In this document: in pieces, positions 12,196 to 37,136 of the stretch
Numbering within the stretch: the first letter of the stretch is position 1
Layout of the letters: the number at the start of each line of letters is the position of its first letter
Source of the DNA: Phycisphaerales bacterium
GTDB taxonomy: Bacteria; Planctomycetota; Phycisphaerae; Phycisphaerales; UBA1924
Assembly: GCA_022843565.1 (NCBI GenBank)
Contig: JALHNK010000012.1
Span: 1 to 40,399 of the forward strand
DNA: 40,399 nt
Reading direction: 5' to 3'
The notes under the pieces: model-generated
What the model was told of the DNA's origin: nothing
The model's database searches: none
What the model saw: only the letters and a program-made list of their open reading frames with translations
Position numbers and translations under genes: made by a program

Positions 12196-13611
12196 ATGCG
12201 ATACTGTGACCTGTGTGTGATCGGCTCGGGCCCCGGCGGACAGAAAGCGGCAATTCAAGCCGCGAAGCTCGGCAAGGACGTGGTGATCGTCGAGAAGATG
12301 GACGTGGTCGGCGGCGTTGCGATCAACACCGGCACGATCCCCAGCAAGGCCCTGCGCGAGGCGGTGCTGGCGGTCAATCAGGTCGAAAACGTGATGGCGT
12401 ACGCCAAGGACCAGTTCCTGACGCGCGAGAACAAACTCGAGCGTCTCACCTCCGCGACCAATCGCGTCGTGCGTGCCGAGGTTGATCTCACGCGTCAGCA
12501 ACTGGTCGCCAACCAGATCGAGATCATCAAGGGGCATGGGAGCTTCGTCGATTCCAAGACCGTGAACGTGGACGGCCCGCGCGGCGTTGAGCAGGTCCAC
12601 GCCGAGCACATTCTGATCGGCGTCGGCACGACGCCCGCCAAGTCGCCCGGCGTTGAGTTCGACGGCGTGAACATCATCACCAGCGATGAGGTGCTGAAGC
12701 TGCCGGCGCTGCCGCGCAGCATGATCATCGTCGGCGGCGGTGTGATCGGCACGGAATACGCGTCGATGCTCGCGGCCCTGGGCGTGCGCATCACGCTCAT
12801 CGAGGGCCGCCCTCGATTGCTCGAGTTCATCGATGCCGAGATCAGCGAGGCCCTGCAGTATCACCTGCGACAGATGGATTGCACGCTGCGCCTCGGCGAG
12901 AAGGTCGTCAGCATCAAGAAGGTCGCGGCGCCCGCGGGCTCACGCAGCGATGACGGCGTCCTGGTGCAGGCGACGCTCGAATCGGGCAAGGTCATCACGG
13001 CCGACTCGCTTCTCTACGCGATCGGCCGTCAGGGCGCAACCGCGGGGCTGGCGCTGGAAAAGGCCGGCCTGGACGCGGACAACCGCGGCCGCATCAAGGT
13101 CGATGCGAACTACCGCACGAAGGTCCCGCACATCTACGCCGTCGGTGATGTCATCGGCTTCCCGGCCCTGGCCTCGACGAGCATGGAGCAGGGGCGCGCC
13201 GCGGCCCAGGACATGTACGGGATCAAGCACGAGAGCGCAGCGGAACTGATCCCCTATGGCATCTACTCGATCCCTGAGATCTCCATGGTCGGCTGGACCG
13301 AAGAGGCGCTGACCAAGGACAACGTGCCGTACGAAGCGGGCATTGCGCAATACAAAGAGATCGCCCGCGGGCAGCTCTTGAATGATCAGGTTGGCATGCT
13401 CAAGCTGCTGATCCATCAGGAGACGCACGCGCTGCTGGGCGTTCACGCCATCGGCACCAACGCGACCGAGCTGATCCACATCGGTCAGGCGGTCATGGCC
13501 TTCAAGGGCACGGTCGAATACCTCGTTAACGCGGTGTTCAACTATCCCACGCTCGCCGAGTGCTACAAGGTCGCGGCGTTGAACGGGCTGAACAAGCTCC
13601 GCCGGTCGTAG
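12196..13611 (+). CDS. sthA: Soluble (Si-specific) NAD(P)+ transhydrogenase
   Basis: A flavoprotein that moves hydride between NADPH and NAD+ in the cytoplasm, balancing the two pools. The 471-residue protein has the FAD-binding Rossmann motif VIGSGPGG (residues 8-15), then GGVAINTGTIPSKALREAV. This is the position of the redox-active CxxxxC in dihydrolipoamide dehydrogenases, but both cysteines are absent, which is diagnostic for SthA/UdhA. The NAD(P)-binding fold is SMIIVGGGVIGTEYASMLAA, followed by the second FAD contact HIYAVGDVIGFPALAS and the dimerisation domain (LLGVHAIGTNATELIHIGQAV). AAGGAA lies 6-7 bases before the ATG. The gene stands alone and converges with smc, 128 bases away. 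Confidence 0.93.
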   Translation: MRYCDLCVIGSGPGGQKAAIQAAKLGKDVVIVEKMDVVGGVAINTGTIPSKALREAVLAVNQVENVMAYAKDQFLTRENKLERLTSATNRVVRAEVDLTRQQLVANQIEIIKGHGSFVDSKTVNVDGPRGVEQVHAEHILIGVGTTPAKSPGVEFDGVNIITSDEVLKLPALPRSMIIVGGGVIGTEYASMLAALGVRITLIEGRPRLLEFIDAEISEALQYHLRQMDCTLRLGEKVVSIKKVAAPAGSRSDDGVLVQATLESGKVITADSLLYAIGRQGATAGLALEKAGLDADNRGRIKVDANYRTKVPHIYAVGDVIGFPALASTSMEQGRAAAQDMYGIKHESAAELIPYGIYSIPEISMVGWTEEALTKDNVPYEAGIAQYKEIARGQLLNDQVGMLKLLIHQETHALLGVHAIGTNATELIHIGQAVMAFKGTVEYLVNAVFNYPTLAECYKVAALNGLNKLRRS

Positions 13612-31383: not shown

Positions 31384-33574
<2,191 letters not shown>

Positions 33575-35061: not shown

Positions 35062-35352
35062 ATGGCCATCAAGCCCCTCGAAGACCGCGTCCTTGTCAAG
35101 CCCATCGAGAACGAGTCCAAGACCGCCAGCGGCATCTACCTCCCCGAAGCCGCGAAGGAAAAGCCCGTGCGCGGCAAGGTCGTCGCCACCGGCCCCGGCA
35201 AGCTCCTTGAAAACGGCAAGCGCGCCGACATGTCCGTCCGCATCGGCGCGACGGTCGTCTACGGCAAGTACGCCGGCTCCGAAGTCGAGCTCAAGGGCGA
35301 GAAGCTCCTGATCATCAAGGAGTCAGAACTCCTCGGCGTTGTCGAAGGCTGA
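35062..35352 (+). CDS. groES: Co-chaperonin GroES
   Basis: The 10-kDa lid of the chaperonin chamber, 96 residues, cytoplasmic heptamer. It has the PLEDRVLVKPIENE start, the mobile loop ESKTASGIYLPEAAKEKPVRG whose IYL tripeptide docks on GroEL apical helices, GKVVATGPGK, VVYGKYAGSEVELKGEKLLI and the final ESELLGVV. AAGGAG lies 8 bases before the ATG. It is the only groES in the window and must serve one or both GroELs. The gap to groEL2 (167 bases) carries long complementary octamer arrays, so the two genes may not be expressed in equal amounts. Confidence 0.96.
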   Translation: MAIKPLEDRVLVKPIENESKTASGIYLPEAAKEKPVRGKVVATGPGKLLENGKRADMSVRIGATVVYGKYAGSEVELKGEKLLIIKESELLGVVEG

Positions 35353-35360
35353 TCCCTCGA

Positions 35361-35503
35361 AGTGGCAGAGTGGCAAAGTGGCGAAGTGGCAAAGTGCTGC
35401 TGAGCTGAAGTTTGTCACGGTTGCCACATTCCTGCTCGCTCGCTCCGCGTTCCGTCGCGCGCCTCACGTCTTTGCCAATCTGTCACTTTGCCACTTTGCC
35501 ACT
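35361..35503 (+). repeat. Complementary octamer arrays forming a ~33-bp helix between groES and groEL2
   Basis: Left arm 35361-35396: AGTGGCAG, AGTGGCAA, AGTGGCGA, AGTGGCAA, AGTG. Right arm 35471-35502: TTTGCCAA, TCTGTCAC, TTTGCCAC, TTTGCCAC. Pairing 35361-35393 with 35503-35471 gives 28 Watson-Crick pairs, 3 G-U pairs and 2 mismatches, with a loop of 77 bases. The right arm ends about 5 bases before AAGAGG, the groEL2 ribosome binding site, so the structure could control transcript stability, termination or groEL2 translation. Confidence 0.85.
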
Positions 35504-35519
35504 TCCTCAAGAGGTTCCC

Positions 35520-37136
35520 ATGTCCACCAAGCAGATCATGTTCAACGACGCCGCGCTCCAGGAGATGAAGCGGGGCGTGCAGCGTCTGACCCGAGCCGTG
35601 AAGGTCACGATGGGTCCCACCGCCCGTCACGTCGCGATCCAGAAGTCTTACGGCGCGCCGATGCTCTCCAACGACGGCGTCTCCGTCGCTCGCGAGATCA
35701 CGCTCCCGGAGCCCTTTGAGAGCATGGGCGCCAAGATGGTCGCCGAGGTTGCGAAGAAGACCAACGACGTCGCCGGCGACGGCACCACCGCCGCCACCGT
35801 GCTGACCGAGGCCATCTTCCTCGAAGGCCTGCGCCACATCGCCGCTGGCGCGAACCCCGTGCTGCTCCAGCGCGGCATCAACGCCGGCGCCACCGCCGCT
35901 GCCAAGGCGATTGACGACATGAGCGTCAAGTGCAAGGGCAAGGAAGACTACATCAAGGTCGCCACCGTCTCGGCGTCGCACGATGCCCAGATCGGCAAGA
36001 TCATCGCCGAGGCCATCGCCAAAGTCGGCCCCGAGGGCGTCGTCGAAGTCGAAGAGGGCAAGGCCTCTGAGACCACGCTCGACTACACCGAGGGCATGAG
36101 CTTCGACAAGGGCTACATCAGCCCCTACTTCATGACCGACCCCAAGACCGGCGAGTGCGTGCTCGAAAACTGCCTCGTTCTGCTCTACGAGAAGAAGATC
36201 GCCAACCTCACCGACTTCCTCCCGTTCCTCAACAAGGTCGCTCTCTCAGGCAAGACCCTGCTCATCATCGCTGAGGAAGTCGAGAGCGAGGCCCTGGCGG
36301 CCCTCGTCGTCAACCGCCTCCGCGGCGTGCTCAAGGTTTGCGCCGTCAAAGCCCCCGGCTTTGGCGATCGCCGCAAGGCGATCATGGGTGACCTCGCGGT
36401 CCTCACCGCCGGCACGTTCTTCGCCGAGGACATCGGCCGCAGCCTGGAGTCGATCGAGCGCCACGAGCTCGGCACCGCCAAGCGCGTTGTCATCAACAAG
36501 GACGAGACCATCGTCGTCGAGGGCGGCGGCAAGAAGTCCGAGATCAAGACCCGCGCTGACCAGATCAAGGCCCAGCACGACAAGTCCACGAGCGATTACG
36601 ATCGCGAGAAGCTCATGGAGCGCCTCGCGAAGCTCACCGGCGGCGTCGCGGTCATCAGCGTCGGCGGCACCAGCGAGGTCGCGGTCAAGGAGAAGAAGGA
36701 CGCGGTCGATGACGCGCTGCACTCCACCCGCGCCGCAGCGAAGGAGGGCTACGTCCCCGGCGGCGGCGTCGCGCTGATCCGCACGCAGGACGCGATCCTC
36801 AAGGCCAGCAAGGCCGCGAAGACCGACGACGAGAAGACCGGCTACCAGATCGTCGCGCGAGCCGTCGAGGCCTGCGCGTACCAGATCGCTCAGAACGCCG
36901 GCGTCGATGGCGACATCGTCGTGTCGAAGATCAAGGAGGGTTCGGGCGGTTTCGGCTTCAACGCCTCTACCCACGAGTACGTGGACCTGGTCAAGGCCGG
37001 CATCATCGACGCCGCCCTGGTGCCCAAGACCTCGCTCATCAACGCCGCGAGCGTCGCGGGCCTGATGCTCACGACCGATGTCATGATCGCGGAGCTCAAA
37101 GACGACACGAAGGCGACGACGGGCGCAACGGCCTGA
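35520..37136 (+). CDS. groEL2: Chaperonin GroEL, paralogue 2 (altered ATP pocket, no GGM tail)
   Basis: A second chaperonin subunit of 538 residues, downstream of groES. Its numbering matches E. coli GroEL without gaps through residue 91. The nucleotide pocket departs from canonical: L31 is Met (TMGPTARHV instead of TLGPKGRNV), K51 is Asn (SNDGVSVA) and T91 is Ala (DGTTA). D52 and D87 are kept. The apical contacts with GroES ([15 protein letters not shown]) are like E. coli, and it has VPGGG near D398. The C-terminus ends in [10 protein letters not shown] with no GGM repeats. AAGAGG lies 5 bases before the ATG at 35520. A reading from 35412 passes through the octamer arrays and is rejected. 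It may be a specialised chaperonin or a partner for GroEL1 in mixed rings. Confidence 0.95.

Follow-up and report, generated by a model that had tools for sequence, protein, structure and literature searches.

The region between groES and groEL2 of the Phycisphaerales bacterium contig JALHNK010000012.1 (assembly GCA_022843565.1; the whole stretch analyzed, positions 1 to 40,399, i.e., 40,399 nucleotides, is referred to below as the window) contains two complementary arrays of tandem octamers, which probably represent a copy, non-autonomous or decayed and devoid of an open reading frame (ORF), of a small hairpin mobile element whose full form encodes an S23-family protein. The feature is best read as an intercistronic relative of the 23S rRNA intervening sequences (IVSs) that encode S23, and it looks like a widespread, apparently undescribed mobile element, not like a heat-shock switch. 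S23/IVP genes are common in uncultured bacteria, where their function outside of the rRNA IVSs is not known, and no paper tying S23 outside of rRNA to paired arrays was found in the open-access literature (preprints and subscription papers were outside of the search). The combination of S23 and paired arrays offers a testable unit, consisting of a protein and an RNA hairpin, as well as a candidate origin of many intergenic short tandem repeats.

The groES–groEL2 Gap in the Window and in Related Genomes

Tandem Repeats Finder detected two arrays, one of AAGTGGCA at 35360-35396 (4.6 copies) and one of CTTTGCCA at 35470-35504 (4.4 copies). On the forward strand, the 5′ arm (35359..35394; approximately 4.5 AAGTGGCA octamers, G-rich strand) starts 6 nt past the groES stop codon and pairs with the 3′ arm (35470..35505; approximately 4.4 reverse-complement octamers, TGCCACTT) over 36 bp, comprising 31 Watson–Crick pairs, three G-U pairs and two mismatches, within which lies the 33-bp core (28 + 3 + 2) that an earlier note on this DNA had correctly described. 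When the whole window was scanned for close inverted repeats, this arm pair scored highest (47 vs. a window 99th percentile of 24), and the predicted minimum free energy (MFE) of the RNA from 35350-35522 was −76.6 kcal/mol (z −6.3; none of the 200 shuffles were as good). The 75-nt loop between the arms (35395..35469, forward strand) contains no ORF and is unmatched elsewhere in the genome; it is at this very site that relatives carry the S23 ORF.

When the groES–groEL2 gap was compared across 30 genomes, many of these had a plain gap of 24–165 nt without any array, and seven other genera of the family (G002, G009, G010, G013, G014, G022 and G034) had an S23-family ORF (PF05635, 23S rRNA-intervening sequence protein; 2.7e-35 for the one in G010, with 2gsc as the closest solved structure for a related S23) within the gap; this ORF carries a frameshift in G009 and has degenerated in G034. 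Inverted arrays flank this ORF in each of the seven, the arm units being GGCATCAG/GGCACTAG in G002, GGCAATGG in G010, GGCACTAG in G013, GGCACCGG in G014 and GGGGATCG in G022. A gap with inverted arrays and no S23, as in the window's own genome (G000), was seen in G007 (AGCAGCAG), G019 (AAATGGCC) and apparently also in G030, whose gap of approximately 1.1 kb (L183) places the apparent ORF-less array pair (GGGCAATG) next to a gene resembling a sulfotransferase by eye. In most of the gap elements, with the exceptions of G019 and G009, the two arms match each other better than in any swapped pairing. The earlier note had proposed looking for arms conserved as complements in related genomes, and inverted arms are found in some of the gaps; many gaps are plain, and the units differ. 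As the helices of the relatives differ in sequence and enclose an S23 ORF in seven genera, the gap seems to have received an inserted element. A single ancestral insertion was rejected, as the S23 proteins from the seven gaps failed to group as a single clade (approximately unbiased test, p-AU 0.017; the proteins are short and the resolution is low), so that either several insertions into the gap took place or copies have left it; the proteins of G002, G014, G022 and G034 group together (support 94/85).

Dispersal of the Octamer Arrays

In the window's own genome (3.54 Mb in 237 contigs, 89% complete), the AAGTGGCA octamer arrays are found at approximately 40 unrelated sites, and the 15-mer AAGTGGCAAAGTGGC, with two or fewer mismatches allowed, was counted 90 times in the forward and 85 times in the reverse orientation vs. 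6 and 1 times for the same pattern read backward. A search of this genome with the whole element as the query returned matches to the arrays alone and never to the loop, and the idea that the arms enclose a conserved core that moves was rejected. Among the 39 stretches that were read, approximately 10 had a forward array followed by a reverse array no more than 250 bp away and none had the opposite order, every array pair of the genome having AAGTGGC on the left and GCCACTT on the right. In 29 of the 44 scorable cases, a predicted start or stop codon lay no more than 25 nt from the outer end of an array, and in approximately one case from the inner end, as judged by crude gene calls.

The same-genus genome G001 has 54 octamer-array matches of its own, and the pairs read there also run forward, then reverse, yet its orthologous places are free of the array at all five sites checked, these being the groES–groEL2 gap and four others of contig C36. 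Other genomes of the family mostly show no or few octamer matches, with 136 in G011. Judging by these comparisons, the octamer-array element is mobile or at least labile. Contigs of Prevotellaceae/Prevotella (L002, L043 and L080) carry the octamer in the opposite order, GCCACTTT and then AAAGTGGC, unlike the Planctomycetota pairs.

The S23 Element and Its Arms

In its full form, the element consists of a 5′ arm of G-rich tandem 7–8-mers, approximately 330 bp encoding the S23/IVP four-helix-bundle protein, and a 3′ arm of reverse-complement units, with a median outer length of 481 bp and an array period of mostly 7 or 8; the 5′ arm was richer in G than in C in 93 cases vs. 12. The fit between the host genes is tight, the median distance being 1 nt from the upstream stop codon to the 5′ arm and 10 nt from the 3′ arm to the downstream start, and in 60 cases the two neighbors are co-directional and S23 runs in sense with them, vs. 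6 cases in antisense (p 3e-12). When the sense RNA is folded, the arms are paired in 98 of the 102 S23 element MFE structures. The window feature has the stem and the position of these full elements and follows their orientation rule, and is without the ORF. What calls for an explanation is that the arms match within a copy and differ between copies: the arm unit varies among the copies of a single genome, both arms of each copy matching, and the own arms scored a median of 40 vs. 19 for arms swapped within the same genome (p 3e-23), the own arm being the best one in 33 of 37 cases.

To quantify the association of S23 with arms, the arm score was defined as the best local match of the S23 upstream flank to the reverse complement of the downstream flank, and shifted windows of the same loci served as the control (median 19, 95th percentile 24–27). 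A score of at least 30 was reached by 38 of the 40 S23 loci from six Planctomycetota genomes and by none of the 20 divergent IVP paralogues (G061 and G072). Within the window's family and order, 21 of the 29 S23 loci were above the control 99th percentile and 22 of 30 scored at least 30, and 27 of 30 loci from other phyla also reached this score (Anaerolineae/Chloroflexi, Flavobacterium and other Bacteroidetes, two Deltaproteobacteria, Parcubacteria and one unclassified lake bacterium). Pooled, and with the divergent paralogues excluded, 108 of the 123 S23 ORFs (Planctomycetota, Chloroflexi, Bacteroidetes, Deltaproteobacteria and Parcubacteria) lie between inverted arms, a count that comes mostly from metagenome assemblies with simple gene calls and from arms found by local alignment at a fixed threshold, and whose loci are not independent events, since some of them share ancestry. 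One locus of a Flavobacterium metagenome-assembled genome (L365) is an S23 copy with arms of the window's own AAGTGGCA unit; the arm units of S23 copies in G020 and G011 are AAGCGGCA and AAGTGACG.

Several further S23 loci deserve mention. The divergent IVP paralogues of G072 (L301-L308), which have no inverted arms, are in most cases flanked on either side by strong direct repeats. The accB–accC gap holds S23 elements in L206 and L207, and the gap between the genes of the pyruvate dehydrogenase beta subunit and the acyltransferase holds them in L213 and L231, in both instances from different genera and with different units. An S23 element with arms is also found inside the coding sequence of dnaE (DNA polymerase III alpha), at the same place in three genera (L209 of G009, L211 of G004 and L239 of G093), where S23 is overprinted on a host insertion, as the DnaE frame stays open straight through the element (1088–1102 codons in these loci) in a frame other than that of S23; an empty dnaE site is seen in L395 of the same-genus genome G024.

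Comparison with Known Elements

The S23-encoding 23S rRNA IVS of Coxiella burnetii has a 28-bp terminal stem, is cut by RNase III and has been called selfish (PMC4990558). Like the 23S rRNA IVSs, the elements described here have an S23/IVP ORF within approximately 430–480 bp, ends forming a stem of approximately 30 bp and an orientation in sense to the host transcript, and the window feature has a stem of complementary ends (36 bp vs. approximately 28 bp); unlike them, they lie between, and sometimes inside, protein-coding genes instead of rRNA (in the window, between groES and groEL2, not in a 23S rRNA gene), their stem is made of tandem 7–8-mers with a copy-specific unit, and ORF-less copies are dispersed, the S23 ORF being absent from the window and present in the same gap of the seven relatives.

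The resemblance to miniature inverted-repeat transposable elements (MITEs) is also evident, the window feature being small, ORF-less and bounded by inverted repeats with many dispersed copies. ERIC and Correia/NEMIS are likewise small, dispersed, intergenic, ORF-less hairpins that are possibly cut by RNase III in mRNA. Unlike these, the elements described here lack a conserved terminal sequence and a known parent transposase, and their arms are tandem arrays of a changing unit; no ends shared with a transposase-encoding parent were found, and the ORF seen between comparable arms is S23. Such bacterial MITEs have been reviewed elsewhere (PMC2229807, PMC10969869). The REP/REPIN-RAYT systems pair a fixed palindrome of 20–40 nt with a RAYT (Y1) transposase, and the window's genome instead has tandem octamers and a single weak, partial Y1 match.

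The TAACTGA direct repeats of Beggiatoaceae and cyanobacteria are short tandem heptamers upstream of start codons, for which it has been remarked that the mobile component might be a protein binding the repeats (PMC4679880). The arrays described here resemble these and the cyanobacterial STRR heptamers in being short intergenic tandem 7-mers ending just upstream of start codons, and differ from the TAACTGA repeats (direct arrays with one inverted case and no S23 link; PMC4679880) in forming inverted complementary pairs. Avd of the diversity-generating retroelements is a four-helix-bundle relative of PF05635 (PMC10053308), a parallel that does not extend to the enzyme, as no reverse transcriptase (RVT_1) was found in G000, G001, G011 or G071.

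Proposed Mechanism and Alternative Explanations

The bias toward the sense orientation, together with the close fit of the element between a stop codon and the ribosome binding site that follows, suggests that the element lives at the transcript level, as the S23-encoding 23S rRNA IVSs do. The hairpin would be transcribed with the host operon and form a stem of approximately 30 bp that could be cleaved by RNase III, so that an insertion at this place would be nearly harmless. S23 would be translated from the host transcript and act on the hairpin of its own element, and the arms may stay complementary either through fold-back copying, with one arm serving as the template for the other, or through selection for pairing. 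The window copy would then have lost its ORF and kept the hairpin.

Several observations weigh against this explanation. No S23 remnant is recognizable within the 75-nt loop; most arrays of the window's own genome are single and unpaired; and the two S23 elements of that genome are built of units other than AAGTGGCA, so that the link from the window to S23 rests on the relatives. Neither a precise empty site nor a target duplication could be resolved in the comparison with G001 or in the dnaE case, the intergenic DNA being too diverged and the empty dnaE site differing over 61 nt. No mobility enzyme was identified: a reverse transcriptase as the mover was rejected, given the absence of one from the four array-rich genomes named above, whose arrays evidently do not require it, and a Y1/RAYT mover is a weak candidate, with Y1 transposases being weak or absent in some array-rich genomes (the one weak, partial match in G000, and one partial match in G071, a genome with 14 S23 copies).

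A bolder proposal, put forward tentatively and less likely than not to hold, is that of a new, cross-phylum, transcript-level class of mobile elements in which S23 recognizes, and helps to spread, hairpins of copy-specific 7–8-mer arrays, with the first arm serving as the template for the second. If true, it would assign a role to the S23 proteins, explain many of the short intergenic tandem arrays of bacteria and make the rRNA IVSs one branch of a larger class.

Among the alternatives, the one that survives best, albeit as an unlikely one, is that the arrays are self-spreading tandem satellites, which originated by slippage and were spread by recombination or fold-back copying, with S23 genes landing between them and taking no part in the movement. 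It would account for the many single arrays and for the own-genome arrays far outnumbering the S23 genes, of which the two copies have other units, and short repeats of 5–11-mers, heptamers above all, are known from many genomes, with slippage having been proposed as their source (discussed in PMC4679880). However, 108 of the 123 S23 ORFs lie between arms that match each other and not those of their neighbors (vs. none of the 20 divergent paralogues), the S23 elements have a constant size of approximately 480 bp and a sense orientation, and L365 joins S23 with the AAGTGGCA unit.

A DNA-level miniature transposon (MITE- or REPIN-like), moved by an HUH (Y1) or other transposase recognizing the hairpin and carrying S23 as cargo, seems improbable: inverted repeats, dispersal, ORF-less copies and the Y1 transposases present in some of these genomes agree with it, but the strong sense bias (60 vs. 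6) is unexpected for DNA transposition, the Y1 matches of G071 and G000 are as scarce as described above, and a sequence-specific transposase is hard to envisage because the units differ copy by copy. The least probable alternative of all is a cis-regulatory RNA helix for groES–groEL2 that uncouples the two genes, stabilizes the mRNA or senses temperature by masking the groEL2 ribosome binding site, since the helix, although stable (z −6.3) and predicted to pair that site, belongs to arrays that recur at the approximately 40 unrelated sites and are absent from the same-genus gap and many others, and the gap has neither a conserved sequence nor an Rfam match.

The Host Locus

The long helix inferred in the earlier note stands as a potential RNA structure and not as a function specific to groES–groEL2, and the uncoupling or thermosensing suggested there finds no support, a groES-specific regulator being rejected on the genome-wide dispersal and the absence in relatives; in general, such helices should not be taken for gene-specific regulators. 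The helix does end close to the groEL2 ribosome binding site, where approximately 5 bases had been noted: the 3′ arm ends approximately 4 nt 5′ of AGAGG (35510..35514, forward strand; the likely host ribosome binding site) and 14 nt 5′ of the groEL2 ATG (35520). In the MFE structure, the CCTC directly past the groES stop (35355..35358, forward strand) is paired with the GAGG (35511-35514) of that site. At most, a side effect of the window copy on the groES/groEL2 mRNA would be expected, possibly cleavage by RNase III and some occlusion of the groEL2 ribosome binding site. No matches to Rfam family models, including RNA thermometers and riboswitches, were obtained over the window, and no sigma-70 promoter or terminator pattern was found at the groES–groEL2 feature.

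The host genes are groES upstream (Cpn10, PF00166; 35062..35352, forward strand) and groEL2 downstream (Cpn60, PF00118; 35520..37136, forward strand), the latter being one of two groEL genes in the window: groEL1 (31805-33574) has a long GGM-type tail, whereas groEL2, which sits behind groES and is followed by dnaJ and grpE, does not. The window's other strong inverted repeat, at approximately 12361-12550, falls within sequence that resembles ordinary coding DNA and was left out of consideration. Other short tandem families (TCAGTTT, GCAGCAAA, GGGCATC and CCCTCGGC) occur in the same intergenic regions of the window's own genome as the octamer arrays (L321 1280-1600; L117, L120, L140, L143, L148 and L154), and the palindrome GGCAGGCGTCCTCGCCTGCC, which is repeated at many sites of this genome, adjoins those families (L321 and others).
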